Source: Tetradesmus obliquus (lineage: Eukaryota > Chlorophyta > Chlorophyceae > Sphaeropleales > Scenedesmaceae). Taken from it: a DNA stretch of 64,000 bases. Of this stretch, positions 9,701 through 56,373 are shown one piece after another. Below the pieces are notes generated by a model, which ran no database searches, was not told where the DNA came from, and saw only the letters and a list, made by a program, of their open reading frames with translations. Each line of letters opens with the position of its first letter. Positions within the stretch are counted from its first letter, which is position 1. A program made the position numbers and the translations under genes. Location: NCBI GenBank assembly GCA_030272155.1, contig CP126191.1, positions 8,454,501 through 8,518,500 of the forward strand. The letters run 5' to 3'.

Positions 9701-12700
9701 AACAGCAGCGTACACTGCAAACAGGCAGGCATAACAATGCATGCACGCAGCCACACAGCATGCAGCTTGCCCCTGCAGGCCTCACCTCCCGCTGCACATG
9801 CCTTGATAGCTGCAGCCACGTTGTAGTGCTGGTGGGACTGCAGGAAGTGCATCACTGCATGCGGCTCAAACTGCACCAGCAGCCGCACATACAGGTCAGC
9901 AACCTCGGACCTGTCAAGCAGCAGCCGCTCTGCCCCTGCTGCTGCTGCTGCTGCCATGCTGGATGTATCTGTTGCGGCACCAGCCCCTGCTGCTGTTGAG
10001 GAGGGCGGCAGCTCGCCAGCTGCTGCTGCTGCTGCAGCCTGCTGTGCGCGCTGCAGCAGCAGGGCCTGCTGCATTGCTGCTCGCAGGAAACGGAACTGCA
10101 GCAGCGGCTGCTGCTGCAGGCTGATCAGCACAGGCACCTGCTGCTCGGGCTGGTGGCGCAGCAGCAGTGCGGCTGTTGCTGCCGGGTCCAGCTGGATCAG
10201 CTGCACAGCGTGCTGCAGCACTGCTGACACAAAGCGCTTGCGGGTGCTGCTGCTGCTGCTGCTGCTGGTGGTTGAGCTGCTGCTGCTGCTGTTGCTGCTA
10301 AGGAACTTCTCAATGTACACAAACACCTCGCCATGAGGTCTGCTGCCTGCTGTCATCTCAGCTGCTGCTGCTGGGTCTGCTGCAGGCGCAGCAGCATCCG
10401 CCTCATCCTGCTGCTGCTGCTGCTGCTGTGCTAGCTGCAAGTATGCTGTGATAGCTTGTCTGTAGCTGCCTGCTAGGTGGTGGATGGCAGCAGCAGCCCT
10501 AGTGAAGCCTGCCTGAGTAGCTAATGTCAATGCAGCCTGAGCTTGCTGCATTGTAAATGCTGCAGCATCTATGTGCTGCTGCTGCTGCTGTCCTGCTGCT
10601 GCTGCTGCCGGAGGGTTGATGCCCACTACTTCAACAATAGAGATGAACTGCTGCTCGAGCTGGCTTACAAGTGCCCCTGATAGCTGCTGATGACTGCTGT
10701 CGCATGCTGCTGCTGCTGCTGCTGTTGCTGCTGCAGCCTGGTCAACAATGTGCTGCAACAATTTCAGAACAAACGTTGGCTTTACTGTCACCCTGCCAGC
10801 TGCCAGCAGGTCTGCAATGTAGTTCATCACCACACAGCCACCACTGAGCTGGCTGCTGCTGCTGCTGCTGCCCTGCCACTGCTCAAACTTACCTGCTTCC
10901 AGCAATGCAATGAGGGCATTGACCACCACCTGCATTTGCATACAGCAGCGCGCAGCGCAGACGTTGACTCGGAGAGAGCAGCATGCCATGCACTGGAGCT
11001 GCCCTATCACCTTGCTGCCGGCCAGCCTATGCTCCCATCCATGCTGCGCCCTCGTCAAGAAGTCACATGCCAGCCTCTGCATGACACCCCCAATCCAAAC
11101 AACAAACACCAAGGCACCAACACCTTGCAGCCCCTGCCCTGCATACCATCCAAACTTGAACTGTCCGGTCAACCCTGTGTATATAGATTGTCAAGCCTCC
11201 TGCCAGCGCACCTGCGTGGCCACCAGCACCGACTCAAGATCGACAGAGCCCAAATCACTTTGAGCTCTTGGCTGTACACAGCAGTCAAACTGCATCTGTC
11301 CAGCCAACACACACCCCAACTTGCCCAGCCCACCTGCGTGGCCACCAGCACAGACTCAAGCTCACTGGCAGGCTTGCCAGCAGCGGCGCGCAGGTCTGTC
11401 TCCACCGCATCCCACCCCGCAGTCGCCTCAGCCAGCACGGCCACAACAGCAGGCACATCCACACTCAGCAGCAGCTGCAGCGCAGGGTGCGGATCAGACA
11501 GCCGCCGGCACACCACCGGGCTGTGGTCCGTGCTGCTGCTGGCATCAGTGCTGCTGCTGGTGGCTGCTGGTGGTGCGCTGAGTGCTGCTGCTGCTGCCGC
11601 AGCGCGGCCGCCGGAGTGGCGCCACTCTGCCAGCAGGTCTGCTGCATCAGCGAAGAGCAGGCTGCCCAGCAGCGTGGCGCGGATGGTGTCACGCACACCC
11701 GGGGGGGAGCTGCGGGGAGGGGGTGCAGCAGTGCAGGAAAGGGGCGCAAACAGCGACAACATGGCAGGCGTATGTTGACAATGTGCCCAGCAGCGCCACG
11801 CAGCACCACTGCAACACATACCACAGTGCCAGCACTGCTGCAGCAGGATGATGCAGCTGGTGTAAGCCAGCCAGTAGGCGGTGCAACCCAGCAGCATGGT
11901 CTATCGCAGCCACAGCCGCTACCCATGCACCTGGATAGGCTGCCAGTGCCCGGGCGCCGGCAGCAACAGCACTGCTGCAACACACACACACCAATGCAGC
12001 AGCAATGATCAAGCATGATGCACCTGGGCAGGCTGTCAGTGCCCGGGCAACGACAGCAACAGCACTACTGCAACTCACACACACCAACATAACAGCAGCA
12101 CTGCTCTGCATGAAACACGTGCAGACGAAATCAGAACATTACAGATCCAACATAGAATAGCGGCCCCAGCAGCCCCGCACCTGGGCAGGCTGCCAGTGCC
12201 CGGCGGGAAGGCCAGCCCCCTGAAGCAGCAGCGCAGGTACACCAGCAGCTTGTAGCAGCAGCGCCGCGCCTCAGCAGCGCTGCCAGCGCCAGCCACGGCA
12301 GCCAGCAGGTCAGTGAGGGGCTTGCGGTAGTCTGCCAGAGCGCTGTTGTGAATGTAGGCCAGGGCGCTGTACAGCCCGCAGCCCTCACACAGCCGTATGA
12401 CCTGCGAGTGTGTTTGTGAATGTGTGTTCAAATGTGTGTAAGTGTGGCTGGATTGTGTGTGAATGTAGGCCAGGGCGCTGTATAGCCCACAGCCCTCACA
12501 CAGCCGTATGACCTGCGAGTGTGTTTGTGAATGTGTGTCCAGATGTGTGCAAGTGTGGCTGGAATGTGTGTGAATCTGGTGTGGGTGTAGGCGGCAGTGC
12601 AAGCAGCCGTATGACGTGCATATGCAGGTGCGCGGATTGAGGATATGGTGTATGGGAGCGGCGCAGTGCACTTGTGTGCTGCTCGCTGGTGTGCAGCATG

Positions 12701-12848
12701 CGTCTCAGAAGCATACTGCGTAGTGCGGTTATGTGTGCAGCAATCGCAGGACATAAACCCGTGGTACTGTATTTAGCAATAGGCCACGCAGTGTCATACT
12801 GGGTGTCATGCACATGGTGGCTCTGGCCCTGCACCTGCCGCTGCGCCT

Positions 12849-12929
<81 letters not shown>

Positions 12930-15900
12930 CCCCCCACCTGGTCCAGGTCCAGCGAGGCGATGCTGAGGTGCAGCACGCAGCCCTCCACACGCTCCGGTTG
13001 GCCCACTGCCGCAAAGTGCTGCACCAGCGCCTGCAGCAGCACCAACAGGCACAACAACATTCAAGTTCCGCGCTGCAACAGCCTGGTGCCAGGCACATCG
13101 ATTGGGTAACGCTCGCTGCGTCGATCTGCCGCAGCATGCAAAGCAAACGAGCTTGCAGCGTGCTCTGACACACCGCTGTCAAACACACAGCATCAAACCA
13201 AAACTCTGTCACCCCAAACTGACAACAGCCGTGTTATTCTTCATCCTACAATGGTTTCATGTCCAACAAGCATGGCTTACTAAGGTTGGTAACCAGGCCG
13301 CACTAATTTGTGAGCACATGGCCAGCATTGCTTGCATGTGAACGGTTGTGCATTTACCATGCCTAGTCCTGTCCATATTACATGGCTCACCTGCATGACC
13401 TCAGGGTCCAGCCCCAGCAGCAAATCTGACAGAACAGCAGCCTCCAGTGCACCCATGAAGGCAGCCACAGAACCGCTGCCAGGCCCGGCAGCAGCAGCAG
13501 CAGCAGCCGGCGGCCGAGCAAACAGCGGGTACACGCGCGCAAACAGCACGTCTGGCCGGCCCAGCAGCAGGCAGGTGCACAGGCAGATCTCCGCAGCAGC
13601 AGCCACGTCAGACGGCGGCTGCGCAGCAGCAGCAGCACTGCCACCTGGCACAACCTGGCCTTGCTGCTGCTGCTGTCCTGCAGCCTCCTGCAGGGTTGCA
13701 GAGGCATGCCCCAGCATCAGGCTGAGCATCCACTGCTCCAGCTGCTGCGGTTCAGCGCCTATGCCCTGGCTGCGCCCTAAACCGCCCACAGAAACCCTGG
13801 GTTTCAGGCCGCCGGCTGAACCGCTGCCGCCACCAGACGGGCCGTGCGGCTCGCTGCCGGAGTGGCTGCTGCGCTGCTGCTGCTGCTGGATTGTGTTGTG
13901 GAAGCGAAGTGCATAGTATAGACCGAGTTTGAACTTGCGCACGTCCTGCGGATGCAATCACAATAGTAGTAGCAGCAGCAGCAGCCAGCACAAGCCGCAC
14001 AGAAACTGACGGTCAGTCAGGTACATCATCGATGACAACCAGCAACTGACGAGGCAGCTGGCTAGCACCGACGACAACCTGGCCAATGCCAAGCTCTATA
14101 CGTCCGCAGTGCCCTCACAATACGCGACAGTGCGGCGACTCAACTTCCACTCTGCATCTAGTCTGCATCCATTCTGCAATCATTCTGCAATCACTCTGCA
14201 TCCACTTCGTATCCACTCTGCAATCACTCTGCAATCACTCTGCATCACGCTGCATCCACCCTGCATCCGCTCTGCATCCACCTGCCCCTACACCCCCGCT
14301 GCACCTACGCAGAACCCCCCACCCACAGCACCATAAAAAGTGTTTTTTTTTTCTGTCACCCCCACCCGCCCTTTCGCCGCACCTGCAACGTCTTCAGCAG
14401 CTCGCTGCAATGCACCCACACTGCACCCACATCGCACCTACTCAAAACCCCCCACCCGCAGCACCCCAACCACTGCTCTCTCCCCCCCTCGCCGCACCTG
14501 CAGCGCCTTCAGCCGCTCACTCCAGGGCAGCCACGCTGCACCCACATTGCACCTACTCAGACCCCACCCGCAGCACCATCACCCCCACCACTGCTTCCCC
14601 CCTCCGCCGCACCTGCAGCGTCTTCAGCCGCTCGCTGCAATGCATCCACGTTGCATGCACACTGCACCCACACTGCACATACACTCCACCTACACAGACC
14701 CCCACCACCAGCATCATCACCCCCCCCCCCCCCCCACGCCCACACACACTGCTCCGGCCCCCCTCCCCCGCCCCCCCCCCCCCCCCCCGCTCTCCCCCTC
14801 GCCGCACCTGCAGTGTCTTCAGCCGCTCGCTCCAGGGCATCAGCCGCGCACAGAACACGCCGCCGGCCTGGCCCAGCAGGTACAGCCGCGGCCCGCCACC
14901 CACCACGCTGCAGCAGCAGTCAGCACCCCAGGCAGCCAGGCCCCCAGCCAGCGCCCACTGCCGGTCCACTGGCTGATCCATCCACTCTACCTGCTCCTGC
15001 ACACGCAGCACGCGCTGCGCACCCTGCTGCTGCTGCTGCTGCTGCTTGTCATGCCTGCTGCTGCTGGTGGTAAACCCTAGGACGAGCAGCAGGGTGCTAA
15101 AGCCCTGCTGACAGACCACCGCCACAGCATCCGCATCCAACCAGTGCACCCCCAGGATCGGCAGCGGCTCAGTAAGCCCCAGCAGCGGTTCAGCAGCATC
15201 AGGGTTCCCCCCTAAACCGCCGCCACTGCCAGAACCCTGCCCAGAACCCTCGGCCTGCCCTGCTGGTGTGCTGCCGCTCCAGGTGGCGCTGATGCTGAGC
15301 GGGAAGTGGCCTGCAACTTGAGCTGCAGCAGCAGGGTTCAGGGATTCTAAAGCCTGCTGTGCGCGCTGTGCTGCACGGCTGGTGGTGAAACTGCCTGGGC
15401 CGCCCCTCCGCAGCTGGCCGGCTGCTGCAGCTGCTGCAGCCAGGGCGTTTGAGGGCGCTGCGTCTGCGGCACCTGCAGGACAGCAAGGGTGGAGTCAGCG
15501 ATGCTGCGGCAGCCAACATATGTCATCACTTCACGAGGAGGTGTCTGCAGCAGACCTGTGGAGGCAGTCTCAGATCAGGTTGGTGGACTGCATCAGCTGC
15601 TCAAATGCCTGCAACGCTTGTGGGAAGAACCGAAGCCCTTGCAGCCACGCCTGTAAGGCATGCTGGCCTCAGCAGCCAAAGAAGCGGCTGGTCAAATGAT
15701 CATGGCATGTTGCAGCCAGCGCAGTGAAGAAATCTCGTGCATACACATAGCACACCACACAACAGCACACACCCCTTCCATGCGGCTCTGCGGGCTTGTG
15801 TGGGACCCAATTCACCATGATGCTGTGGTATTGCTGAGTGCTGCTGCTGCTGCTGCTGCTGCTGCAACATGTACCATCTGCTGCTGCATTCAAGTGCTGC

Positions 15901-17104
15901 TGCTGCTGCTGCTGCTGCCGGGCTCACCTGCATCTCCGGGGTTGACATGGTCGCCAATCAGCGGCACATCAAACATGACAAGCCTGCTGCCCCACCCCAG
16001 CGCCAGCACAGCCACCGGCACCACCATGCCGCCGCCAGCGTTACCAACACTGTTACTAACACCGTTAGTAACAGTGTGGCTGCCGTCTTCAGCAGCACCC
16101 CCGGACCAAACCCTATACCCTGCCGAGGCCTTGCGGGCGTGTGGCAGCCACGCAGCAGTCGGCACTGCTGCTTGGGGGCCTGCAGTGGGCTGTGGTATGC
16201 TGAAGAGCATGAGCAGCTCCTGGGCCTGAGGCTTAAGCCGAGCGATGTAGGCGTGGCTGGGGGTGAGCAAACAGAAGACGCCGTCGCCCACACGCCAGGC
16301 GCCGTCCTGTGCAGGTTGTAGGGTGGTGCGCACGCAGATCAGATTCAGACAGACGCACACAATGCGAGACGGATGATTCATAGTGTCTGCTGTTGTGCAC
16401 TGCACGGATGCCATGGCCTAGCAGACTGCTTATTCCGGGCGCGTGCGCATTGCATTCAACGCGGTTCAAGGCATACCAGGCCCTGCAAAAACCAGTATCA
16501 TGTACTTGCTCTGCTGCTGCAGCAAGCGGCGCACCTCAAACAGCGCCCGCCACGCTGCCTCATCCGCGCCAGCAGCAGGGCCTAAACCCTTGGGGCTCAG
16601 CGGCGGCGTGCCGCCCCTAAACCCCTGCACCCCAGCTGACCAGGAGCTGCCCCTGCCCCCAGCGCCACCACCGCTGCTACCGCCACCCGCTGCTGCTGCT
16701 GCTGCCCCTGGCGCCGGCATGGTGAAGGGTGCCAGGTGTGAGATGCCGAGCAGCGGCCCGTACTGCCCGTTTGCGAGCACCTTGCTGCTGACGTTGGTGC
16801 GCAGCAGCAGCGAGCTGAAGGCGTGCAGGCACAGCCGGCCCCGCGCGTCGCCTGTCAGCAGCAGCGAGGTGGCTCTGCTGGGCAGGAAGCTAGCAAGGGT
16901 GATGCGGGCGCCGTGCTGGGCTGCAGGGAGGTGGGCAGGAGTGCAGGCAGGCAGATGTGCATAAGGTCAGCCATGTCAAAAAGGAAGGCAGACAGGTGTG
17001 CAAGCATGCAGGAAGCTGGCCAGGCTGATGCAGGCGCCGTGCTGGGCTGCAGGGGGGGACAGGTGCGCAGGGTCAGTAATACCACAAGGCGGCAGACTGG
17101 TGTG

Positions 17105-17185
<81 letters not shown>

Positions 17186-19836
17186 ATCGCAAGCAGGTCT
17201 GCAAGGCTGCTGATACAACTGAGAAGATATCTGACTGACTGAAAAAATATCTAGCATGGCCATTACTTGCTGCCTTGAGGATGCCACAGCCCTCTACAGC
17301 ACGCCGTCAACATCAAATCAACCGGTTTCAATCCAATGACCATGTAAGATGGCGCCGACTGCCGCATAGTCAACCCGGCGCCCGCTTGCATATTGCTGTC
17401 ATCACTATCATCACTATCATCACTTGCTGCTCACCTATGCCTGCCACCTGGCTGGGCCCTCTGCGCTGCACCGTGCGGTCAACACAAAGTCGATATTGCC
17501 GTCATCCGTGTCATAATCATCATCGCTCACCTATGCCTGCCACCTGCCTGGGCCCTCTGCGCTGCAGCTCCCACACTGTCAGCGCACCGCTGCCATGCCC
17601 CACAGCAAGCCACAGCGCATCACCAGCAGCCGCAACCACGCTGAACCCCAGACACGTGACAGCATCCACCCCTAAACCCTCGCCCAGCTGCCACATCGCC
17701 ACCCCGCCAGGCAGCACGCTGTGGCCGTGGCCGCCGGCAGGGTTTTGGTGGCCTGCTAAACCGCCGCCCTGCTGCGCTGCTGCTGAACCCTGCTGTGGCA
17801 GTTGGAAGACCAGGGCTGAGCCTGAGGCAGTGCCGACTGCAAGGTACTGGCCTGAGGCAGCAACCACCTGCATGGCAACAGTCACAGCAGCCCGCAACAG
17901 ACTTATATAGCTGACAGCGCCACGTAACTGCAGAATGGAAGTGCAAGCGTGCACAAGCACAGAGCCAGCCAGCACTGTTTCAGGGCAGAGGCAGCCCCAG
18001 CCACTCCTGCAACTGCCTGAGCTGTTGCAGTGCTGAAGCTCAAGTACGCACACGTGTGGGGCAGCAGCGTGAAGCACCGGCCGCAGAAGGTGGGCAATGA
18101 CCACGGCCAACTGCTGTGCGCACCCCTCCCACGCTCCCCAGCCACCCACCTGCAGGGGGCCATGCGGTGCCAGTGCAGCTGCAAGCACCTGGCTCCAGTC
18201 CACGCCAGCAGCAGCAGCACCACCACCAGCCGCGCCGCTGCTGCTGCCACTGCCAGCGCTGCCGCCCGCAGCGCCGGCAAACAGCCCTGCCAGTGACTCC
18301 AACTTCAGCAGCACGCCACCACCTATCATAGCACCACCTGAGGCAGCCGGCCGCCCCGCAGGGTTCCAGTCTGCCTTTGCATCTGACAGCAGCGCGGACA
18401 TCCGCGCCTGGGGGTCCAGGCGCTGGAAGGCCCTGCGCTGCTGCTGCTGCTGCTGCTGCTGCTGTGCGGCGAGGCCTCCATGGAACAGCATCTCCTCGTA
18501 CTGCCAGGCCTGCCGCAGGGCCAGCTCATGAGGGGGCAGCGCAGCAGCAGCCGGCCCCTGCTGCCCTGCTGCTGCTGCTGCTGCTGTTGCTGATGATGAA
18601 GGTGCTGGCGGTGGGGTTAGCAGATCGCTGGCACTTTGCATCTCGTTGCTGCCAGTGACAGCTGCCTGTTGCTGCTGCGGCACTGGAGCCGCCACGCTGC
18701 CCGACACAAACCCGCCTGCTGCTGCTGCTGCTGCTGCCACCTCTGCCGCTGCTGCTGCTGTTCCTGCAAGCCCTTGCACAGGCTGCGCCGCTGGCTGCTC
18801 CACCTCCAGCACCTCCGCCATGTCATGTAACATGTCCAGCATGTCCGAATCATCATCGCTGCTGGCCCTGCTGCCGCTGCTGCTGCTGCTGGGGCCGTTA
18901 TTATGACCATCAGCAGCTGTCCCACTTGCTGCAGGAACAGCAGCTGCAGCCGCACCATTTGATGGTGGCTGTAGCCCATTTGCTGCAAATGCGGGCGGAG
19001 TTGCTAGGGTTGTACTGCTGCTGTGGCCGTCCATCAAGTCAGTCAGCACACTGCTGCCTGCATGTGAGGGCTGCACAAGCAAGGGCAGACCAGTGGCGGC
19101 GGGACTCTTGCTTGCTGCTGCACTCTTGGGGCTCCTTGCTGGTGCCTCATTGCTTGCATGCTGCTCCTCCTCCTGCTGCTGGTGCTGCTGCTGCTGCTGC
19201 AGCTGCAGCTGCTGCTCGCCGGGCAGCAGCTCACCCAGCAGCGACTTCAAGTAAATCTCACCAGCATCCTGCTGCTGCTGCTGCTGCTGCTGCTCCTGCT
19301 GTTGTGGTGTATGGTGATGCTCTGGTTGCTGTTGCACATAACTCACTGCAGGCGCAGCAGCTGGTGCTTGCTGGGGTTCCAATGCTGCAGAGGCTGTTGC
19401 TGTCGCTGCTGCTGGTGGAAGGCTGGCTCCTGCTGCATCAGCTTGCTGCACATCTGGCGTGCTGGCTTCCCCAGTGGCCTGACGCAACGGAACACATAGC
19501 ATATGCAGGGCAGGTCGTCGCGCAGGGACGAAATTGCTTCCCTTGCTGTCCACGTCACTGCACCTGAGTTTCTCAAGTGCAGCCGAACTAAAAAAACAAA
19601 GCCTGTTCCTGCTAGCATTCTCTTCCATCTGCTGCAGCTGGGCACTCCAACTGGCACAAGCACCTGCAGTACTGTCGCAAGGCATTGTGGAGCTACCAGC
19701 TCCAGCGGTGAACACGCTGCCTGACACAGCATGCCTAGGGTTGCATAGGGAAGGTCAACCAGGAATTGTTTGCCAGGCTTACCTCACCACCAGCCAGTAG
19801 CTCTGCCAAAATGTCTTCAAGGGCCCTCTCCTCCAT
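6793..19836 (-). CDS. VPS8: VPS8, CORVET complex subunit (vacuolar protein sorting-associated protein 8)
   Basis: Fourteen exons on the minus strand: 19836-19783, 19478-18150, 17867-17531, 16920-16477, 16306-15928, 15472-14808, 13945-13391, 13030-12938, 12401-12181, 11709-11334, 10929-9786, 9421-8038, 7780-7685, 7480-6793; about 2,590 residues. All junctions agree in codon phase except exon 4/5, whose boundary is uncertain; the 5' end of exon 2 is also a choice among acceptors. An acidic polyQ/polyA N terminus is followed by a beta-propeller-like region (AVGTASGSALVFQ, LLLTGDARGRLCLHAF). The plant-VPS8-like segment is RLYLLGQAGGVFCARLMPW, followed by helical repeats (RVEGCVLHLSIASLDLDQ, FLRAAMQQ, QFEPHAVMHFLQ) and the family C-terminal signature GEFRATLLGLFGATAYE. 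CORVET tethers early endosomes through Rab5/Vps21. No C-terminal RING finger was found, although animal and plant VPS8 carry one. It is longer than plant VPS8 because of low-complexity inserts. Confidence 0.9.
11204..11362 (-). repeat. Duplicated VPS8 exon-10 donor edge
   Basis: The last 30 or so bases of exon 10 plus its GT donor (coding strand ends GTGGCCACGCAG|GTGGGC at 11334) recur about 122 bp further into the intron (copy about 11204-11240, also CACGCAG|GTGCGC). The copy keeps a usable-looking donor site. Confidence 0.8.
11927..12206 (-). repeat. Triplicated VPS8 exon-9 donor edge
   Basis: The 3' end of exon 9 with its donor (original 12177-12206) recurs at about 12020-12050 and 11927-11958. 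Each copy reads on the coding strand as GGCAGCCT..CCAG|GTGC or a close variant. The two intronic copies also share flanking intron sequence, showing an approximately 93-bp tandem unit. Confidence 0.82.
12349..12627 (-). repeat. Duplicated VPS8 exon-9 acceptor edge
   Basis: The first about 50 bp of exon 9 with its acceptor (12349-12425) recur almost unchanged at 12460-12535 as part of an approximately 111-bp unit. A third partial copy surrounds CAGCCGTATGACGTGC near 12606. Both ends of exon 9 are therefore flanked by copies of themselves. Confidence 0.85.
12847..12931. repeat. CTG/CAG triplet repeat in VPS8 intron 8
   Basis: A nearly pure CTG run on the plus strand (CAG on the coding strand) begins a few bases after the exon-8 donor at 12938. 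It is interrupted by one CCCTTG. Six frames stay open through it, so apparent polyQ/polyA/polyL frames here are artefacts. Confidence 0.9.
14150..14290. repeat. Short-period repeat in VPS8 intron 6
   Basis: Tandem copies of an 11-12 bp motif like CACTCTGCAATC, varying to CTGCATCCA, lie within the intron between exons 6 and 7. There is no coding role. Confidence 0.8.
14376..14840 (-). repeat. Four-copy array of VPS8 exon-6 donor edge
   Basis: The original exon-6 end (14801-14840; coding strand GAGCGGCTGAAGACACTGCAG|GTGCGGC, shortened here) recurs at 14606-14645, 14491-14530 and 14376-14415. Spacing is 195, 115 and 115 bp, so the unit is a true tandem repeat that straddles the exon/intron boundary. 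All four retain the GT donor in the same context. Poly-C tracts (about 14721-14741 and 14771-14788) lie between the original and the first copy. Confidence 0.9.
16882..17053 (-). repeat. Duplicated VPS8 exon-4 acceptor edge
   Basis: About 45 bp at the start of exon 4 with its acceptor (original 16882-16926) recur at about 17008-17053, 126 bp upstream in transcription. The copy keeps CTGCAG|CCCAGCACGGCGCC. Confidence 0.85.
17103..17185. repeat. GGCA tetranucleotide microsatellite
   Basis: About twenty perfect GGCA units lie in VPS8 intron 3, between the duplicated exon-3 donor edge and the duplicated exon-4 acceptor edge. Confidence 0.95.
17429..17566 (-). repeat. Duplicated VPS8 exon-3 donor edge
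   Basis: A 42-bp block at 17525-17566 (exon-3 end plus the ATAG|GTGAGC donor at 17531) recurs at 17429-17470 with one mismatch, 96 bp away. The flanking intron sequence (a GTCAAC..ATATTGC..GTCATC block) is also duplicated, so the unit crosses the exon/intron boundary. Confidence 0.88.
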
Positions 19837-37003: not shown

Positions 37004-37035
<32 letters not shown>

Positions 37036-37216
37036 GTCAACCCATGTCATACAGCAGCACCAGGCTGGACACAGGCAGCTCAAGCAAGAGCAGGAGTAGC
37101 CAGAGTGGAGCAGCAGCTGCCATTGCTGCAATACACACATGCAGTCGGGGGCATTCTACAGCCTGAATGCTGCAGGCACGGTTGGGTTAGGCAGCAGCTG
37201 GCTGCACAGGCACCAC

Positions 37217-37248
<32 letters not shown>

Positions 37249-38605
37249 CAGGGCAGCAGTTGTTGCAATGCACCTGCTGCTCCTGCTTTGAGAGGTTCCA
37301 AGCTTTTTCGTCTTGATTGGCTCCGCCAACAATGATGATGCTGTTCTCACCTGCAGAGAAACAGCAGCAGACAATGACAAAGGCAATGACAATGACAACG
37401 ACAATGACAATGACAACATGATGCTTTTCTCACCTGCAGTGCAACAGCAGCAGACAAAGCACAGCACAGCAGCATGCGGCACAACTCACATGTGAAGTGT
37501 GACGCGCGTTTGACGTGCATGACAGGTGCTGCTTGCGAGAAACATGAGGTGTGCACCGTGTGTGGCAAGAAGCGTGACAGCATTCCAGCAGAGCAAGGTG
37601 TGATTGAAGCACTGGAGCGCTGCCAGCCAGGGGGCTTTGTCCCCACAGCCAAGCCTGCGATTGAACACCTGATGAACCACTGAACTGTGCAAACATTGCA
37701 CGTTGAGGGCAGCAACAGCATCCTGCATGTGTCTGCTGCCGCAGCGGCCGCAGTAATCTCGAAAGAGGGGACAGTTACATGTGGGTCCTGCACCATCTTA
37801 GATGGTATGAGCCACATCAGGGTGGACACATGGTCTGAGACCAGTAAATAGACGAGTGAACATCATCGAACATGATGCACACTCTTGTTATGCTGTATCC
37901 AGTCACAGGATAGCAGGACGGTCGGAGAGAACATGAACATCATACTATGTTCCAGTAGAACACGATGCACACTCTTGGTATGCTGAGTACCCAGTCCTGC
38001 CCCCACCGCTGCTTTGCAGGAGGATGACAGCAGTGCCTGTAGGCCCAGGGCTCCCCTGCAAGTGATCCAGCCGCACCCCTGCCCCAGCCAGTGCTGCGCG
38101 CAGCGGCGCTGCATAGCTGTCGATGCCGACTTTGCCCAGGAAGTATGTTGGGTAGGAGAGCTGTGCTGCTGCAGCGGCTTGGTTGGCTCCCTGCAGCAGC
38201 GCCGCGGCATGGGAAAGCGGTTTGCAGGAGTTACAGGCTCGTCCTGGTTCTTCCCTGGCACGCAGCAACAGTAAAGTCTGCATGCGTGCTAGGCACTTCA
38301 ACCGCTGGTGTGCTTGCTGCTGCAGCTACCTTGCCACCTGGGAAGAAGGACATGGTCTTGGCTCCTAGGGTTTCGCCGGGTTGTGGGAGCCGGTCTACTG
38401 AAAGCACTAAGTCTGCATTGATGCTGCCAACAACTACCAGTGGCTTCAAGTGTGTGCTGCTTGCTTTGTCAGCAGCAGCAGCAGCAGCAGCTGCTGCTGC
38501 TGCTTTGCTGGTGCGTGTAGCATGGCAAGCTGTCGCGCCCTTTAGCTGTAATTGCATATTATGTAGTGTTTGAGCAGCTTTTGGGTTGGTGCTGAGCGCC
38601 CGCAT
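35406..38605 (-). CDS. RBSK: Ribokinase (PfkB family), probably plastid-targeted
   Basis: Six exons, all in phase: 38605-38330, 38190-38007, 37350-37274, 37001-36930, 36381-36039, 35581-35406; 375 residues. It phosphorylates D-ribose to ribose 5-phosphate with ATP, feeding nucleotide and pentose-phosphate metabolism. The N-terminal PfkB signature GSINADLVLSVDRLPQPG is followed by FFPGGK|GANQA split over exons 1/2, then ENSIIIVGGANQ, AGAVLLQREIP, the ISPNETE motif and the catalytic anion-hole motif as GAGDCF, with the catalytic Asp present; Cys replaces the more usual Ala/Ser/Thr. The first about 50 residues are Ala/Ser/Thr/Lys-rich without acidic residues and look like a transit peptide, as in plant RBSK. 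Length matches the family once this is removed. Introns carry CTG repeats and a copy of the exon-3 acceptor edge. Confidence 0.93.
35640..35690 (-). repeat. Fragment of dispersed repeat family, reverse orientation
   Basis: Partial copy (GGTCCAGCATTGCTTGAAGG, then TGCGCAGCTGCGCATG) of the approximately 100-bp family seen at 36717, 40513, 43283 and 43617. It lies in the last intron of the ribokinase gene. Confidence 0.65.
36717..36826 (+). repeat. Dispersed approximately 105-bp repeat, copy A
   Basis: Runs from ACACAGTAGATGCAAGGC through TTCAAGCAAAGCTGGACC to GAGTGGGCTGTTCATGCAGG and GCACAGTAG. Full-length relatives are at 40513-40620 and 43283-43391 (same orientation) and 43617-43711 (reverse). 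There are no terminal inverted repeats or poly-A tail, so I do not assign a class. It lies in ribokinase intron 4. Confidence 0.8.
37332..37460 (-). repeat. Duplicated ribokinase exon-3 acceptor edge
   Basis: The acceptor and first bases of exon 3 (coding CTGCAG|GTGAGAACAGCATC at 37350) recur about 88 bp upstream in transcription, near 37425-37440 (CTGCAG|GTGAGAAAAGCATC). The block between includes an AC/AT-rich GACAATGACAA repeat (37373-37420). Confidence 0.75.
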
Positions 38606-39188: not shown

Positions 39189-41105
39189 CTACCCAGACAG
39201 AGCTCGCTGCACCACAGCTGCCTGGTCTGCCGGCAGCGCCAGGCTCAGCGCTGCTGCTCTGCCTCCCTCGCCCATCTTGGCCCATGTCTTGCGCACGATG
39301 TCCACCATCTTGTCGGGGCCCTCTTTTGTCAGCAGGTCGGCAAACTGGTGCTGCATGAACACCAGGCACAGCGCATCCTCCACCACCTGCAACCCACAAT
39401 TTGTGTTGCAACACAAATCAGGTGAAAGATGTCTTTATAAATTTCATTTTGATGTCAAACAGTGAAGGATCTACCACCCAAACATCACGAAGACGTGTGT
39501 CCTGTGAATTCTTGGATGCTTCTATAGCCTGCTCGCATGCAACTGCAACACTTGAAGGTGCGTAACTGTGCATTTACTCAGGATGTACTGTATGATGTCG
39601 TCCTTGTACAACAGTGGGATGGATTTGCGGCTGCGTGCACCATCAAGATGACGAGCAGCAGTGCTACTGCGCCTGCATGATGCGTGATGTCACGCGGGAC
39701 AGCTGGTGACACAGCTACGTTGAGACAGCCCAACCCCAGCGTGGCCGCTTGATGGTTGGTGCAGCAGCAGTGGTGCTGGCCACAGTTGTGTGCAGCGCGC
39801 TAGCCCTTTCACAGTCCAAAGAGCGACCCTCACAGCTGCTGCTGCTGCTGCTGCAGCTCCATGACCAGACAGCTGCCATCCAGCACGCCCATGCATGCAG
39901 CACCATCCAGCCCAAAACTGATACCCAAGGTATCTGTCAGCAGCATGCTGCAGCCCCAAACAAACTCTCAGGGTTTGTAATATGACAGTGTTTTAATATG
40001 ACAATTTTGTGTCAACAGGCTGCTGTAATCCTACCTGGTTCTCAGGGTCTTTCTTCAGGTCCTTCTTCAGAATGAACCTTGTCACGCGCTGCTGAGAGGC
40101 CTCGTCATAGCCTGCCGCCTGCATGATCTCCACCACAGTGGCTGCATGAGAGGCCTTGAGGCCCTCCCGCCACTGGAAATAGCCGGCCTTGCCCTGCACA
40201 GCAGATAATAACAATCACACAAATGTAGAGTGCACGTGTATATTATATAAATGCATTAGAATTTGGAACTGATTGGTAGTAAAATTATACGTGTCTTTGG
40301 AAATTTCACCTTATTTGGCATCAGCTGGAGATAGCCGGCCTTGCCCTGCACAGCGCAGCAGACACACGGCTGGCATATGCAGTTACACAAGTACCTTGGT
40401 TTTGGAGAAGCCGCAGCCGCATCAACTCGTCCTTTTGTACAGCTGCCATGTGATGTGCAGGTCGGGGTCATCACCCTGGGCGCTAAGCTGCTGCAGCCTT
40501 TGTATAAAGACGATTGTACACAGTAAATGCAAGGCTGCGCACCTTTAAGCAAAGCTGGACCAGGAAACCCGCGCCCAAAGAGCCCTGATGCTCCTAGTGG
40601 GCTGTCATGCAGGCACAGTCATCCAGCAGCACGTCACCTTGTGCGCCGGCTCACAAGCTGGGATAGCGAGAGCAGGTATGGAGCCACGACAACATCTGAC
40701 ATCAATAATACGTGCACCACCAGTAACATTTCACCTAACATGTTATAACATGTTGTAACATGCCCTTACCTCCGGGTAGGAGCTGCGGGGCGTCTTCCAG
40801 CGCTGCACGTGCTGGCCCCGTGCCACAATGCGCAGCTCCTCACTTGGCTGCTGCTGCAGCTGCAGCACCCACTCGGTGAGCCACTGGCTGTAGGCCAGCT
40901 CATATGGCAGGTCCTGACCTTGCCAGCTCACTGTGCGGGGGTCCTGGGCATTCAGCGTATCAATTGCGTCCAGTACTTGCTGCAGGCGGGGACTAGTGAC
41001 GGCGCTACTGCTGCTGCTGCTGCTGCTGGTGCGGGTGGTGGTGTGGCATGAGTGCCGCAGCCGCAGCTGCTGCTGTGGGGTCTGCTTGGCTGCTTGGTGG
41101 TGTGC
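39189..41105 (-). CDS. DUF4202 family protein, 5' exon unresolved
   Basis: Three exons in phase: 41105-40770, 40193-40035, 39386-39189, giving 230 residues with a stop. The first listed exon has no in-frame Met before the domain, so an upstream exon must exist; a candidate ATG at 41288 followed by a GTACAG donor is weak. Family landmarks in order: LQQVLDAIDTLNAQDP, LPYELAYSQWLTEWV, IVARGQHVQRWKTPRSSYP, GYFQWREGLKASHA, AAGYDEASQQRV, LKKDPENQVVEDALCLVF and DIVRKTWAKMGEGG. DUF4202 proteins occur in bacteria, fungi and algae; the conserved His/Arg/Asp pattern suggests a metal-dependent, HD-like helical fold, but no activity is established. Two intron edges show a duplicated acceptor (see 40177-40354). 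Confidence in the family is high, in the 5' end low. Confidence 0.88.
40177..40354 (-). repeat. Duplicated DUF4202 exon-2 acceptor edge
   Basis: The start of the middle exon with its acceptor (40177-40202; coding TGCAG|GGCAAGGCCGGCTATTT) recurs at 40329-40354, 152 bp upstream in transcription, with one difference over 26 bp. The copy retains the AG acceptor. Confidence 0.85.
40513..40620 (+). repeat. Dispersed approximately 105-bp repeat, copy B
   Basis: Same family as 36717-36826, with ACACAGTAAATGCAAGGCTG at the start and TAGTGGGCTGTCATGCAGGC near the end. It lies in the intron between the first two recognised DUF4202 exons. Confidence 0.8.
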
Positions 41106-42245
41106 CTAGTGTACGGCAGACAGTAAAGGACGCAGCAGGCACAGGTTATGATACGAGCATTTGACGACAAACCTAGCCTGGCACAACCAGAGGTAGATTC
41201 GCCGGGATCTGGCGCTGGTCAAGGCATCTTGTTTGTTGCTGCGTCACGCAAGCGCAGCAAGCAGAACTGACTGTACCCACCGCAGCATGGCACAGCCAAC
41301 AACTACTTCATGGTGGTGTGGGTCTGACTGCTGTGCGTGCTAGGCTACGCCGCACTGACAAGAGCATGACTATTCACGTGCAGTGATTGCCTCTGCTTCT
41401 GCAGTGCTGCTGTTGCTGCTGCTATTGTTGTTGCTGCTGCTACTGCTACTGCCAGCACGTGCTGCTGCTCCTGTGCTGTATTATGAGTTGCAGCTCAGCT
41501 GTGTTGGGTCTGATACGCGCGTCGTCAACATCAGAACTGATTAAGGTACTCACTTTGTGGCAGTGCAGTCGCTGCGGTGCACAGATCATCTTTACTTCGC
41601 ACTACAGAAAACGCCCACGCCCAGTTCACGCCTGGCCGCACGGTGTCGTTCAGCCCTCAACGATATCGTGCGGTGTTTTATCTTTGCATATGCATTCAAC
41701 GAGGTGCCTACATGCACGGGGTGGGAGGCCACTTCAAACCATGACATGGTGACCATGTGCTTTGACCAGCAGGGCTCAAAAACCCTGGTGGCAGGTTTCA
41801 GCACATGACACGGCACAAGCGCTTGTCAAGAGGCCTGCACTTGGTCAAGCGTATTCGGTCCGCAGCTTCTGCCAGGCTCCGTGTAGAGTTTGAGGTTGCT
41901 CTGGGCTATCTGCTCGGAGGGCTTGCCTTGCCCAGCATGGACTGCCAGGTGCCACTGACGGTCAGTACTGTTGTGTTTTGCGTGCTTCTCTCTGCACACT
42001 GCTATCGCTGTGACAATGCCCTTGCAGTAGTCGTAAAAACACTGCAGCATAACAGCCTTTTACAAAGCAGTAGTCTTGAACTGCCCAGACACCAACCAGA
42101 ACTGATACGCTGCACTACATTGGCATTGCGCACTGCAAGGTGGTACACAACATGCTCAGTCGCAGCTGTGCATTACCACCCTTCGAGATCCTGGCTTTGT
42201 CTAGAACTCGTCATTTTACACAACACGCTCAATCGCTCAGCAGCA
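41106..42245. other. Interval between DUF4202 and coiled-coil genes
   Basis: It should contain the missing first DUF4202 exon and promoter (41106 up to a few hundred bp) and the 3' untranslated region of the coiled-coil gene. TTACA at 42216-42220 is a TGTAA signal 26 nt past that gene's stop. A segment at 42130-42215 (GCAGCTGTGCATTACCA, then GATCCTGGCTTTG) is shared with 51450-51505, marking a second dispersed repeat. Confidence 0.5.
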
Positions 42246-46059: not shown

Positions 46060-48229
46060 AAGCTGAAGTTGTCACTTGGCTTTGATGCAACAAAGTCTTC
46101 CAAGTGCCATTCTATGACACTGTCGAGTACTGCTGTTGCTGCTGCCACCTGTTCTTGTGCCACAAGCTCTGCTGCGTGCTGCAGCTGCTGCTGCAGCGAT
46201 GAGTACTGCTGTTGCTGTGGGAGCCCGCTGTAGCGCGCGTAGACCTACACATCAACACAAGCAGCACAGGTCGTTAGAAAGCTGCAGCAAATGTCAGCGA
46301 CAGCGGCAGCATCGTGTCAGCTAGCAGGTGCTGCAAACGCAACGTGTGCTTGCGCCTTAAACACACCTGCGCCACGAGTTGCGCCGTGCACCCGGCCACC
46401 TGCACATACACAGCCCATCGCTTACATGCTGAAAATGTAAACTTGATAAACTTGCTTTGCATGCTCAACAACTCTGCAAACTCCATGTTTGCAGCACTCG
46501 TCATGCAGCACACACCAGGACTTGCCAATCCTTGCCCACCAAACATCAGATCCCTTGCGGCCTCAAAACCCTAAGCCTTCCCTTATGACAAAACCCTTGC
46601 CCACAAAACCCCAAGCACCCTAAAAACCCCACCTGGAAGTCCTGCTGCAGCTCTCCACTGCCAGCCAGGGGAGCCACCTGCCCCACAGCCAGGCGGGCAG
46701 CAGCCTCCAGCTTCAAGCAGGCCAGCCAGCGCCACAGCAGCAAGTCACACGGCCCCAGGCCACACCCTTCCTTGCCACCCTGCTGCTGCTGCTGCAGCAG
46801 ATCATCCGGCTGATGAAGCGTCAAGCCTTCCAAGCTGCTGCTGCTGCTGCCGCCGGTTGCGTTTGCTACAGCCGCTGCGTAGTAGTTGGCTGCAGCCTGC
46901 GCCGTTGCTGCTGCCAGCTGGGTAGCTCCCTCCACTGCCGCATCCGGTGACTTGTATGTCCTGCTGCTGCTGGCCACGCTGCTGCCGCTCTGCTGCGAGA
47001 GCTGCATGGTGACTGTCATCTGCCTGCTGCTGCTGCCGGATGCGATGGCCCTTCCACGCAACTGCAGCTCAATCCTGCGCAGCAACACCACAGGGCAGCA
47101 ACAGTTGGACCAAGTACACGAACAGCATTCAACCTATGAATGCTTCAACTTCATCAAGTTGTGCAGCACTGCTGCATTGTGCATTATGCAGGAGCAAGCT
47201 GCATGCATGCCAGTGCCAGTGCATAACTGTCTGACGGCGGTCAGGCATAACTGCCATAACTGTCATACATGTCAGAACTGTCACGACTGTCTGACGGCGG
47301 TCAGGCACGTACCTGGTACGTGCAGCTGCCCACAGAGCGATGCTTCACTCTAGCAGTCGCTCTGATGTGATGTTAGTGAGACCGATACTGAACAAAGACA
47401 TCTAACAATGAAGAGCTGCTGGCGAACAGCAGCCTGACATCACCACACACACCTGATGCTGTCCCTGCGCATCTGCTGCTTGGCTGCTGCCCGCTGCTCA
47501 GCTGCCTCTCTTGCTGCTCGCTCCGCAGCCTCTGCTGCTCGCCTCGCCTCTGCTGCCACCCGCGCAGCCTCAGCAGCAGCAGCAGCCCTGCAGCAGAAAC
47601 AGCAGCAGCAGCATCACATGGGCAGGATGAAATGTGCTTTGCTGCTGACTGCCATGGCAGAACGCGCGTTACACAGCCAGCCATGGAAGCTTCAATGATG
47701 CTGCAGGACGCTCAGTGCCAGGCAAAGCTTTGGCATGCATTCAGAGGACAGCAGCAGAACAGCATCCGCTACAGTTCTGTTACAAACAGAACTGCAATGC
47801 TGCGGTGAGCCGCACCCCTGACTGGGCTTTTCTGCACTGCACCACCTCCTATCATTTGTCACATTCCGTCTCATTCGGCATCTCTTTGCCGCATTCTGAC
47901 GTAATCGCCATCAAAACACATGTGCCTGCACCAGCCCGCCATTCAGCCCGCCACCCAGCCGCCGGGCCCACCGTGCCGCCGCCTCCTCTGCTGCGCGGCG
48001 TGCCGCCGCCTCCTCCCTCAGCGCCAGCTCGCGTGCGGTGCGGCTGGCCAGCTCCTCGTCAAGCTTGCCCTGGTCCTCCTCAAAGGCCTGGCACAGCAGC
48101 AGCAGCAGCAGCAGCAGCGGCAGCGGCAGCGGCAGCAGCAGCAGCAGCAGCAGCAGCGGCAGGTTGAGGTAAGCGAGCGGCTGGCCAGCTCCTCATCAAG
48201 CTTGCCCTGGTCCTCCTCAAAGGCCTGAC

Positions 48230-48379: not shown

Positions 48380-48435
<56 letters not shown>

Positions 48436-48787: not shown

Positions 48788-48829
<42 letters not shown>

Positions 48830-50219
48830 GCAGCAGCAGCAGCAGCAGCAGCAGCGACGTGGAGCAGTGATGCACAGGTCAGCTACCCTAAACAATGATA
48901 AGAGAATGGCTTCAGAACCAGCATACACAGACACCTGCACGAGCGCAGCAGCTTGCACGCAAGCGGCCACAAGCGCCAGCATGCTTTCCCATTGTGTGCT
49001 AGCACAGCGCTGTTAACATGGAGTTTGCAGAGTTTTTTTAGCATGTAAAGCAGATGGAAGTAGTCGAACGAAGCGCTGTGCGCACCGCTTTGCCGCCTCT
49101 GCCTCCTTGAGCGCCGCCTGCTGCTGCAGGTACTGTGCACGCCTCTCACGCAGCTCCCGGCTCTGCAGGCACACACCAGCACACCACACGGCAGCAGCCA
49201 GCACATTGTTGTCATGTGTGCGCGCAGCTGCACCGTTGAGTCTAATATACGCAATTGCTGCACGCAGCTCCCGGCTCTGCAGGCGCAGCCACATGCACAC
49301 TGCCCTGCTCGCACCTGCACTCGGCTGCCCTCCTGCCGCGCCTGCCACCCCCCACCCTCAAAACCCTGCCACCCCCCACCCTCAAATCCCCGCCACCCCA
49401 CCCTCAAAACCCTGCCACCCCCCACCCTCAAAACCCTGCCACCCCCACCTTCACATCCCTGCCACCCCACCCTCAAAACCCTGTCACCCCACCCTCAAAA
49501 CCCTGCCACCCCCACCCTCAAAACCCTACCACCCCCACCCTTCAACCCCTGCAACCCCCACCCTCAAAACCCTGCCGCCTGCCCCTCACCTGCACCCGGC
49601 TGCCCTCCTGCCGCGCCTGCAGTGCTTTCACATCCAGTCGGCCCGCATCAGCAGCCAGCCGGCCCTGCCGCACCGCCGCCAGCAGCGACAGCGCCACCAC
49701 CCAGCCGCCTGCAGAGGACTCCCAGTAGCCACCTGCTGCTGCTGCTGCTGCTGCTGGCGCTGCTGCTGCAGGGCTGCTGCTGTAGGGGTTTGCTGCAATA
49801 GAAAGAGTTTGCTGCTGCTGCTGCTGGGTGGGTTGCTGGGTGGCTAGCTGCTGGTCCTGCAGGGTGATGCAAAAGGGGCAGGGCAGGAGGAGGCTCGGGT
49901 GCTGGCACAGCTGCCACCTAATGTGCAGGCTAGTGCAGGCAGCTGATAACTTATGTGTGTCCAGAGCAAGAGCATACAATCTGCATGCATGGATGGCATG
50001 CTCTGTCCTGCACCTGTCGATTATGACTATAAGCAGGAGAGGAGCAAAGTGACATATCACAACCCCTGCAGGCCAAGTGTACTGTTCGCGGACCCTGCAA
50101 TGCACATTGCTGCACAGCATACCTTGTACTTCTGAACAGATGAAACGACTTCAGCAATGGCCTCAGGCACAGATACATTAGCAGTTGAAGCATCTGCATC
50201 TTGCACTGCTTTTGATGCG

Positions 50220-50252
<33 letters not shown>

Positions 50253-51126: not shown

Positions 51127-51171
<45 letters not shown>

Positions 51172-51982: not shown

Positions 51983-52024
<42 letters not shown>

Positions 52025-53991
52025 GGGCATGGTACGTTTGCAGCAGCGGCGCCATGCAGCAGCAGCAGCAGCAGCCATGCCCTGGATGCTCACGTTGATC
52101 TGTGGCGGCAGTACACAGCAACACACAACTCTTCAGGCCGTGCCAGCACAGCCCGCACGATTCAGCCCAGCCCCAGCACAGCCCCAGCAAAGCTCCAGCA
52201 TTGTTTTGACACGCACCCCATCCCCATCCCCACAGCCCCGTGGTGGAGCACTCACAGCACGCTCAACACCCACACGTCGCAGGCGACCACAACACCGATC
52301 TTTCCGACGCCCACTTCGTTCGACTACTTCCAGCTGCTGTACATGCTACAAAACTCTGCTAACTCCATGTTACCAATACGTGTCCTACAACAGCAGCACC
52401 ATCCCCAGCGGCACACCAGGTTACAGCACAGCTGCAGCAGCAGCAGCAGCAGCAGCCCGGTTGCAGCACCACCCCCCACCTTGGTGAAGTATTGTGCTAT
52501 GCATTGTGCTATTGCAAAGTGCGTTGCCTACGAATGTGTGTACTGCACCCACCATGGTAAAGCACTTTTTCCAGCAATTTGAATGCGCATTGTGTTGCAT
52601 TGCGCTACTGCAAAGTGCATTGCCTGCAACTCTTCCCACTGCACCCACCATGGTGAAGTACTCTGCCACCTCAGGCGGGTTAACCGCGCCAAACGGCAAA
52701 AACTCCATGCAAAACACCAGCAGGCCGTAGATGACCAGGCCCCAGGCAGTGGCCTGCAGGCCGTAGATGAAGCTGGCCACACCCGCAAGGCCCACAAACT
52801 CGGCTGCTCTCGGCAGGATGCCGTAGAAGGCTGCACTGGCGATGATCATGGGCTGAGGGCCGGCAGCAGCAGCAGCAGCAGCAGGGGTGCAGCAGGAGTC
52901 TCCACACTGCTAGTTGCGACGAAGATCTACAGGCGTGTGTGGGAGTTGCGGAAGGTATGGGCGGAGCAGCAGCGCCCATGCAGCAGGCGCCACTGGCAGG
53001 CAGGCAACAGCCTGCGCAGAATTGCGCAGGCCGAACCGTGTGCAGCAGGCGGCATGCAGCTGGCAGCAGTCCACACGTCTGCATCCAGCGCAACACACAG
53101 CACACCCAGCCTGCCTCACCATCATGCCCGAGGAGTTGAGCAGCTGGCAGGAAAGCAACACGGCTGCAGCCCGCGCAGGATAGCACAGGTGGGGGAGTGG
53201 TGTGCAGCAGGCCGCTACTAGCTAGTATCGGCAGTTTAAAAAGACGTGTTCTGCAACAAGCGCAGACCTTTACCTCTGAACTTGCTTCAAGTTGCTCACC
53301 ATGACTCCCGAGGAGTTGAGCAGCAGCGGGAAGTGTGCGCCCTGCTTGCCTGCAGCGGAGGCCTTGCGGTCAAGCAGCGAGCGCGCAGCAGACAGCAGCT
53401 CCTGCCGCCCGCCAGTGCCAGGGCTGCCAGGCTGCGGCGGCTCCTGCACGAATCGAAACAGAAAAGCAGTTTCTACTTGACGTTCAGTTCAAATTGTTCC
53501 TACTGGTTCGAGTCTGAAATAGTTTATTAGCGGGGCTGCCAGGCTGCGGCGGCTCCTGCACGGTGCATTGTGTGCATGGTTCAACAGCAGGCAGCAGGAG
53601 CAAGACGTTCAGGGAAAGCATGAGCAGGACATGGACATTTGGCACCGGGAACAGCAGCGCATGCCCACAGTCAAAAGCTGCAACCGCAGCTGAACACCAC
53701 GCACACCATGCCCACACACAACATCCTGTGTATGCGCCTCGATCATCCCACTGGCTGCGCCTTGCTGTGCTGCACTGTGCTACCATGTTCTGCCTGCCCT
53801 ACTTTGTACCACGCACCGGCGGCGGCGCCTTGCTGTACTGCACGATGGGCAGCCGCACTTCACTGGCTGCCAGGTACACTGTGAACAGCAGCAGCCCCAG
53901 GTACCCCCCTGCCAGTGCTGCCAGCTTCCACAGGGCCAGGCTAGAGGACTCTAGGCCCACCAGCACCTGGTGCAGCGTGGACGCATACTCT

Positions 53992-54039
<48 letters not shown>

Positions 54040-54307: not shown

Positions 54308-54359
<52 letters not shown>

Positions 54360-55139
54360 GGCCTCACCCGTGATGATGCCCATGCAGATGACCAGCGTGC
54401 TGCCGTTGCCCACGCCCGCAGCTGTGATGGTGTTGGCGCAGTGGTGGATCATGAAGCTGCCAGCCACCAGCGCCAGCGTGGTTTGGACGATAAAACCCTG
54501 GCTGTACAGCGCATAAGGGGCCAGCTCCAGCGCACGCATGATGCCCTGCACACACCCATGAATGCGGCGATTGTTCGGTATAATACTATAACGTATAATG
54601 CTAGAGTATCTTCAAGCACATCATCCGGATCTAGCCATATATGGTGTGGGCTGTATGTGCGTGTGTTTGGCAGGCATGGGGCCCGGCGGCAGCACTGGAG
54701 CAGCAGCTGCTGAAGGGTCAGGGGTGAACTCGTCACGTGCGTGCATTGCACATAGGTGGCACACCAGAGCATGCCAACCATGGCGGGGCCTCGCCAATGC
54801 ACAGCGCACATGCTCTTCAAATCAAATAGGCTGCCAAGCAGGCAGCAACGCTTGCATCAAACACACACAGTCAGACAACACAGCAGCAGCGAAGCAGCAG
54901 CCGTCCTGCTACCCCCTTACCGACTGCAGCGCAAAGCCTGCCGGGCGCAGCACAACTTGATGAGTGCACAGCATGCAGTGACAGCTGCAGGCGCTGCCCA
55001 GCAGGAGCGAAGCTTGCAGCAAACATACCAACAAACAACACAGCAGCAGCGAAACATTTTGCCCAGCTGCTCACCGACTGCAGCGCGAAGCCCAGGGCCA
55101 GGTAGTTGATGCGGTCGTTGATCAGCGCCTCACCCTGGC

Positions 55140-55176
<37 letters not shown>

Positions 55177-55638
55177 GCAGCAGCAGCGGCAGCAGCAGCG
55201 GCAGCAGCAGCGGCAGCAGCTCAGCTTGGCGTGATGGGCAGCTGGATGCAGAGCGCTACACAGCGAGTGGTTACAGCTACAACTGGCAAGAGTTACTGAT
55301 GCGGCGGGCACAGCAAGGGCGCTGCCGTCTTGCGCGCATGATACCGGTGCAGGTCCTGCTGCTGCTGCTGACGTCACCGCTGCTCATGTTGCCCCGCTGC
55401 TGCTGCAACGATCTCCTCAGCCCCGGCTCCTCACCCCCTTGCGCTCTTGGCATGCTAAGCTGCTGCTGCTGCCACTGTTGCTGCTTTTGCTGCTGCTGCT
55501 GCTGCTACACCATCCTCAGACCCCCCCCCCACCCCCTTGTAGCACACTAAGCTGCTGCTGCTGCTGCTGCCACACCATTCTCAGCCTCCCAACCACCTCA
55601 CCCCCTTGCCCTCCTCGCTCTCCTTGCTCTACCGCTGC

Positions 55639-55674
<36 letters not shown>

Positions 55675-56373
55675 ACACAAATTTCCTGGCCGCTCACCCC
55701 CTTGCCCTAAGGTGGTTTGGGAGTGGCTCCCCGTTTTGGGGTTCATCTCTTACTAGAAGATTGTGTGACTGACTAATTGACTCACCCCCTTGCCCTCCTT
55801 GCGCGCCTCCCTCAGACGTGCCGCCCAGGGCCATGGCGCCAGGTCCTTGGGCAGCAGCAGCAGCAGGCTCACGATGATGGACGCGTTGATGTGAGGGGAG
55901 ATGCCCAGCTCAAACAGGCTGGCAGGCAGCGCCTGCGCCTGGCCGTACAGCGCACGCATCATGCGCTCGCCTGCGGGTGCGGCGTGGTGTCAGGGTGGTG
56001 AGAGAGATTGAAAGATAAGATGAGAGGGCCTGATCAGGGTGTGCGGCAAGGTGTTGCGGCAGGGTGGTGAGAGAGTTAACTGCATTGGGATGTACGCAAC
56101 AACGTGTGATGCGGCTAGCAATGTATGGGTGGGGTGGGGCGTCAGCAGGGAGGGAGAGGAAGCGCGGGACAGCCAGCGGCAGCAGCAGCAGCAGCAGCAG
56201 CAGGTGGGCTCGTGCTGGCAGCAGGATATTGGCAGGAGAGCGCAGCTGGGTTGTTGGTTTGAGGAGCGAAGCTGGCTTCTGGCTGGCCACCGCAGCAGCA
56301 GGTGGTGTCTGGCACCCTACCTGCTGCCACCGCCCGCTGCTGCCGCTGCCGCTACCGCCCACTGCTGCTGCTG

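Follow-up and report, generated by a model that had tools for sequence, protein, structure and literature searches.

The window, as the whole stretch of 64,000 nucleotides analysed here is called, belongs to contig 1 in a 17-contig assembly (104.7 Mb) of Tetradesmus obliquus (Chlorophyceae, Scenedesmaceae). It contains genes for VPS8, a ribokinase, a DUF4202 protein, a coiled-coil protein and SCY2, and Pfam agrees with the gene names VPS8, DUF4202, PfkB/ribokinase and SecY. For the statistics, the window was combined with a 200-kb block of the unlinked contig C2. The gene models were produced by a hidden Markov gene finder self-trained on the window and 200 kb of C2, with a consensus of CAG/GTGAG for the donor and TGCAG/G for the acceptor (the slash marks the junction) and 458 introns with a median length of 261.5 nt. 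For the KAS gene on C2, the prediction is 98% identical over the full length to the annotated T. obliquus protein P0035. DUF4202 and ribokinase are fused in one gene model (window 35406-41288), while the proteins P0156 and P0164 carry the two domains separately; the fusion is probably a wrong join.

A number of exon-edge copies had been predicted by the gene finder as small exons. Those duplicating a neighbouring exon were returned to the introns by rule, and the mini-exon copies in VPS8 (225 nt) were returned by hand, after which no internal stop was present. Gene model W,2, which is TE-rich, introns longer than 2000 nt, gene models shorter than 600 nt and mini-exons judged to be copies were excluded. 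Each exon flank was matched against the intron that it borders, with inverted matches and intron swaps as controls. The cleaned set consists of 590 junctions whose flanking exon is no shorter than 60 nt.

At a score of 16, a copy crossing the junction was identified in the same intron for 25 of the 590 junctions, in addition to two exon-interior matches and no inverted match, and five intron-swap controls gave 0, 0, 0, 2 (interior) and 0 matches. At a score of 15, there were 25 cross-junction and 4 interior matches, and a background became visible (inverted 1; swaps 1, 2, 0, 1, 0). A first pass over 452 introns (904 junctions) had given 28 matches at a score of 18, of which 24 were cross-junction and 4 interior, with no inverted match and none in three swaps; at a score of 16 it gave 31 matches, with 1, 3 and 1 in the swap controls. 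The recurrence of exon edges in adjoining introns, which an initial annotation had reported for five neighbouring genes, is therefore borne out, with controls near zero. Its extent is not, since copies were also identified, patchily, on C2: 16 of 111 junctions are matched in the window versus 9 of 479 in the C2 block (Fisher 4.3e-7), and all 25 matches fall in 6 of the 27 gene models. Donors (12) and acceptors (13) are matched equally, and the 22 introns with matches are longer (median 437 versus 264 nt). The interior exon sequence that was searched, 30-150 nt from the edge, amounts to 61,203 nt versus 22,827 nt within 30 nt, or 2.7 times as much. The comparison of exon edges with exon middles in the window and the C2 block came out as the initial annotation had predicted, but it does not separate the hypotheses, since the exon edge is necessarily copied in every tandem or target-site duplication extending into the intron.

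In the window, about 18 affected junctions had been counted; after cleaning, 15 junctions with 20 intronic copies are confirmed (VPS8 6, SCY2 5, coiled-coil gene 2, DUF4202 1, ribokinase 1; Table 1). A sixteenth match, in a CAG-rich intron of the coiled-coil gene (48088-48229), was removed because it probably represents coding repeats. Counting the real one, two to four copies were found per junction and not the five given as upper limit, and the best-scoring copy lies 83-310 nt from the real site, compared to the 95-280 bp stated before. When one ambiguous junction is removed, 24 junctions with 35 copies are left in the window and C2; junction W,4,36 was left out of the later anatomy counts. 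The statement that the copies keep GT or AG holds for 35 of 35, with the caveat that matches were selected to cross the junction, which favours retention.

Table 1. Copies of exon edges and splice sites in introns of the window, with the corresponding real sites
Feature	Position of copy or element	Strand	Real site and remarks
VPS8, exon end and donor copy	11203..11238	-	real 11325-11360; spacer single-copy in genome
VPS8, exon end and donor, two copies	11927..12046 (11927-11953, 12020-12046)	-	real 12177-12203
VPS8, acceptor and exon-start copy	12458..12524	-	real 12347-12413; intron part similar too; tandem array, period 111
VPS8, exon end and donor, three copies	14380..14644 (14380-14414, 14495-14529, 14610-14644)	-	real 14805-14839; period ~115
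VPS8, acceptor and exon-start copy	17008..17054	-	real 16882-16928
VPS8, exon end and donor copy	17429..17470	-	real 17525-17566; 41/42 identical
Ribokinase, acceptor and exon-start copy	37418..37439	-	real 37335-37356
DUF4202 gene, acceptor and exon-start copy	40325..40354	-	real 40173-40202; spacer AT-rich, single-copy
Coiled-coil gene, acceptor and exon-start copy	49261..49284	-	real 49147-49170; 24/24; spacer single-copy
Coiled-coil gene, exon end and donor copy	49312..49345	-	real 49587-49620
SCY2, exon end and donor, two copies	52469..52566 (52469-52493, 52542-52566)	-	real 52638-52662
SCY2, exon end and donor copy	53115..53144	-	real 53295-53324; spacer single-copy
SCY2, real acceptor	53421..53450	-	last 7 intron and first 23 exon nt; 30/30 identical to copy 53533-53562
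SCY2, dispersed introner-like element between both copies	53451..53532	-	17 genome copies including its own; nhmmer 4.7e-16 (53449-53530)
SCY2, acceptor and exon-start copy, read as target-site duplication	53533..53562	-	locus L047
SCY2, exon end and donor copy	54919..54938	-	real 55073-55092
SCY2, exon end and donor, two copies	55597..55711 (55597-55615, 55693-55711)	-	real 55781-55799; short, among the weakest families

The exon part of the copies comprises 14-75 nt (median 31), and the best copies differ from the real edges by 52 mismatches in 803 exon-edge nt. On the intron side, identity is 0.95 at positions 1-5, 0.65 at positions 6-10 and about 0.36 at positions 21-30. At donor sites, it is still 0.89 at +5 but 0.44 at +6, with 0.86-0.95 over the last 20 nt of the exon and 0.66 at 21-30; this drop is too sharp for a tandem duplication that is simply old and drifted. 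A gapped, anchored comparison revealed that at 17 of 25 junctions the intron part is more similar to its counterpart than to other introns (p<0.05). Tandem arrays are present in the window at 11925, 12347 and 14374, and an acceptor in C2 gene model 24 has tandem units in four copies. By this anatomy there seem to be two kinds, namely tandem units with a recognisable intron part, like the one at 12347-12524 with a period of 111, and short copies of exon edge and splice site that flank an unrelated spacer. Eight of the 24 spacers were searched individually, and seven were single-copy while one, in SCY2, was dispersed. A profile search of the window and the C2 block identified no remnants of the element in other spacers at E <0.1. 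A single cause is disfavoured, because seven of the eight searched spacers are single-copy and the known element accounts for few junctions.

The SCY2 spacer (53452-53532) has 12 matches across the genome, its own place included, and with an improved query, 17 copies of an element of about 90 nt were identified on 14 contigs, with 71-100% identity. In the alignment, the element resembles a small intron with a start like GTAAAC and an end like TTTCAAATTTG, and all 17 copies lie within predicted introns. These introns are 108-147 nt long at L040, L041, L044, L046, L051 and L052, and at the other 11 loci the element is part of a longer intron. For L044, the predicted GT-to-AG intron contains little beyond the element. 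At 10 of the 17 loci (L047, L036, L039, L040, L041, L042, L048, L050, L051 and L052), both ends of the element are bordered by direct duplications of 18-51 nt, while 30 shuffles per flank never scored above 10. Weaker flanking duplications were found at L038 and L046 and none at the remaining five loci (L037, L043, L044, L045, L049).

For the 12 loci where a duplication, strong or weak, flanks the element, the junction anatomy was examined. In five of these, the duplication is a copy of an exon edge across a predicted junction, with a spacing of 103-122 nt and the same anatomy as in the window: acceptors are copied with 9+20 (L036), 7+23 (L047, the window locus) and 10+20 (L050) nt of intron and exon, and donors with 16+3 (L038, weak, 16/19 identical) and 17+5 (L042) nt of exon and intron. 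The other seven have no exon-edge copy of that kind at the predicted junction; L046 shares just the splice motif (9+1), L048 has a different, larger repeat at a distance of 510 nt, and L039, L040, L041, L051 and L052 have nothing there. At L040, L041, L051 and L052, the duplicates are located at both ends of an intron of 108-147 nt, which has little in it besides the element and this duplication. The L052 duplicate, ATGC(T/C)GCAGGTGCTG... with an intron of 119 nt, fits an intron that would have been born between the AG/GT sites of the two copies. Within about 200 nt of the element at L037, a diverged exon edge with its donor recurs, as seen by eye, at a distance of about 120 nt around a different spacer, which looks as if insertions had been nested. 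The element at first seemed always to point the same way relative to the junction, but L048 and L051 do not conform to this. The element has a B-box-like stretch on its reverse strand; it is not classed as a tRNA-derived SINE, as no tRNA was matched in Rfam at E<=1 with the one element copy searched (L036). A second dispersed element of about 100 nt was also identified in introns (window 36700-36815, 40505-40640 and 43270-43410; 40 scored copies of 88 candidates genome-wide, 75-100% identity). It was rejected as a cause, since it has no flanking duplications at the three window places (scores 6-10).

We consider it probable, though well short of certain, that the exon-edge copies were left behind as scars by duplications across splice junctions, brought about by insertion of an element or by tandem duplication. 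Such an event would leave exon edge and splice site on both sides; splicing would use one site, the other would fall into the intron and the mRNA would remain unchanged. These events would be tolerable because splicing restores the coding sequence, and the copies would drift thereafter. In the first of two routes, the intron-like mobile element of about 90 nt would insert with duplication of 18-51 nt of its target. With a target that extends across a junction, the exon edge would be copied, one copy staying exon and the other becoming intron together with the element. This route is shown by the anatomy at one window junction (SCY2, 53421-53562) and at its relatives in the genome, and by that anatomy the SCY2 copy is a long target-site duplication. 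In the second route, tandem duplication would act on a junction-crossing unit of about 80-300 nt, sometimes reaching four or five units, as the similarity of the intron part suggests. The junctions other than that in SCY2 would stem either from events like the first route with other inserts or from such tandem duplication. We infer the transposition step, the near-neutrality of the copies and the route behind each remaining junction. Duplication across junctions and growth of introns by this means had already been proposed in the initial annotation and are supported here; it had overlooked the mobile element, by which one window junction is explained outright.

Introners have been described as short, multi-copy, intron-like elements in genes that obtain their splice sites partly from the duplicated target (Gozashti et al. 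2022, PMC9860276). The T. obliquus element is likewise short, multi-copy, intron-like and located inside genes. In contrast to the 3-9 bp given there for the target duplications of earlier introner families (PMC9860276), its duplications comprise 18-51 nt, and unlike the introners described, several of its insertions are located at junctions of longer introns. No paper on introners in Scenedesmus, Tetradesmus or Sphaeropleales was found in a search that was poor in subscription journals and preprints. For potato, one duplication across an intron-exon boundary has been reported (PMC4974935), which, as in T. obliquus, provides splicing signals and places a piece of exon sequence inside an intron. 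The potato abstract presents a single tandem case and no mobile element, whereas here many junctions are concerned, some with an element and flanking duplicates.

Direct repeats of 4-12 bp at the exon ends of new Daphnia introns (PMC4202315) and of 4-30 bp at the borders of introns in general (Rogers and Bendich 2025, PMC11782384) have in common with T. obliquus that the exon edge is repeated at the far end of the insertion, as the footprint of a staggered break or a transposition. The T. obliquus repeats are mostly longer and lie inside existing introns. Staggered double-strand breaks at junctions, closed by filler repair as proposed for new introns in Daphnia, are a possible alternative, if a doubtful one: a long stagger would give the duplication, and the filler would be unique, as seven of the eight searched spacers are. 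However, the Daphnia repeats of 4-12 bp are far from the exon parts of 14-75 nt found here, and 17 similar inserts would be left unexplained.

Random tandem duplication alone, with exonic events purged, those at junctions hidden by splicing and the SCY2 element coincidental, appears unlikely. In that case, copies of conserved exon sequence would stay recognisable longer than copies of intron in intron. The similar intron part at 17 of 25 junctions agrees with it. In a placement model with 200,000 random drops, 26% straddled one junction and 46% fell within an intron; the actual numbers are 26 junction families versus intron-only families in 8 introns, or in 19 when introns with both are counted, which is an excess at junctions with a raw p of 1.8e-6 or 0.0024, respectively. 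Corrected by a rough factor of 1.6 for the slower decay of exon edges, the excess becomes insecure (26/34, p 5.5e-4; 26/45, p 0.11), so that a preference for junctions is a lead, not a result. Against chance duplication alone are the spacers that lack similarity on the intron side despite 90-100% identity of the exon edge, the median exon part of 31 nt where 62 nt would be expected, although divergence trims it, and the existence of duplications flanking the element. An equally tentative and rather improbable alternative is an insertion machinery of Scenedesmaceae that would target splice junctions, cutting 3-10 nt on the intron side and about 15-60 nt into the exon, whereby any insert would duplicate the exon edge. 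The intron-side cut would lie at 7-10 nt for three acceptors and at 3-5 nt for two donors. If true, junction-directed insertion of a mobile element or of unique filler would lengthen introns harmlessly.

The initial annotation had regarded the copies as decoy splice sites, which is appropriate for their sequence, any function being putative. The splice-site scores are nearly equal (mean 8.8 bits for copies versus 9.7 for real sites, with the copy at least as high in 18 of 35), but use of the copy would cause a frameshift or a stop in 31 of 35. That selection keeps them as functional decoy or alternative splice sites is very unlikely. The retention of GT or AG, the scores close to those of real sites and the end of the donor similarity at the end of the splice signal would agree with selection, as would the position of 34 of the 52 exon-edge mismatches at third codon positions (p 0.011 versus a neutral-copy estimate of 0.487), hinting at some constraint. 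However, the 40 copy-private changes in the seven families with at least two copies are close to random by codon position (10/12/18), and the spacing is without a clear bias for multiples of three (10, 8 and 6 of 24). Moreover, comparison by eye with proteins of T. obliquus or related species at 10 junctions (KAS 3, with P0035 and the transcript-derived P0038; SCY2 5, with P0001; DUF4202 1, with P0164; ribokinase 1, with P0156) showed the copies to be absent at all 10. The copies are not supported as true alternative exons either. A transcript-derived SCY2 of a relative, P0004, continues past NSSGVM into unrelated residues and then ends; it looks like a retained intron at one SCY2 junction, with no sign of use of the copy. 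Gene conversion keeping the copies alike is also unlikely, since the homologous stretches are short; moreover, the copy at KAS has retained the older codon TTC (Phe, like P0036-P0039) where the exon reads CTC, which argues against recent conversion at KAS.

An artefact of the assembly or of the gene models is hardly credible: the models were self-trained and the finder had predicted some copies as mini-exons, since removed, but the same anatomy is present on other contigs, the exons are backed by homologous proteins, and P0024, a SCY2-related open reading frame from a JGI-sourced contig, has three tandem copies of the exon start EYASTLHQVLVGLESASLA, one of them with ENASTL..., with intron-like stretches between them. 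P0024 is probably the same phenomenon at another junction in a relative.

If junction-straddling duplication is the origin of the copies, introners, tandem duplication and staggered breaks, as three proposals for the gain or growth of introns, are tied to one footprint in one genome. This suggests a simple rule, by which an insertion that duplicates the splice site along with itself can land at an exon edge and still escape selection, and the copies may show how introns grow without breakage of the gene. For T. obliquus, two sets of annotated proteins are public, with the locus prefixes OEZ85 and OEZ86, which makes presence or absence of the copies directly testable.

Further repeats were identified in the window. 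By eye, motifs like CCTAAACCC, which are telomere-like, recur in the coding region of VPS8 (13760-17680). A predicted intron contains a 21-nt unit that is repeated perfectly about fifteen times (42668-42987). A repeat of about 0.8 kb is present in several copies with 86-98% identity at 27546-31363, and beside it are two tRNA genes (29557-29627 and 31293-31363) with equal Rfam score, the stretches being identical in 82 of 82 positions.
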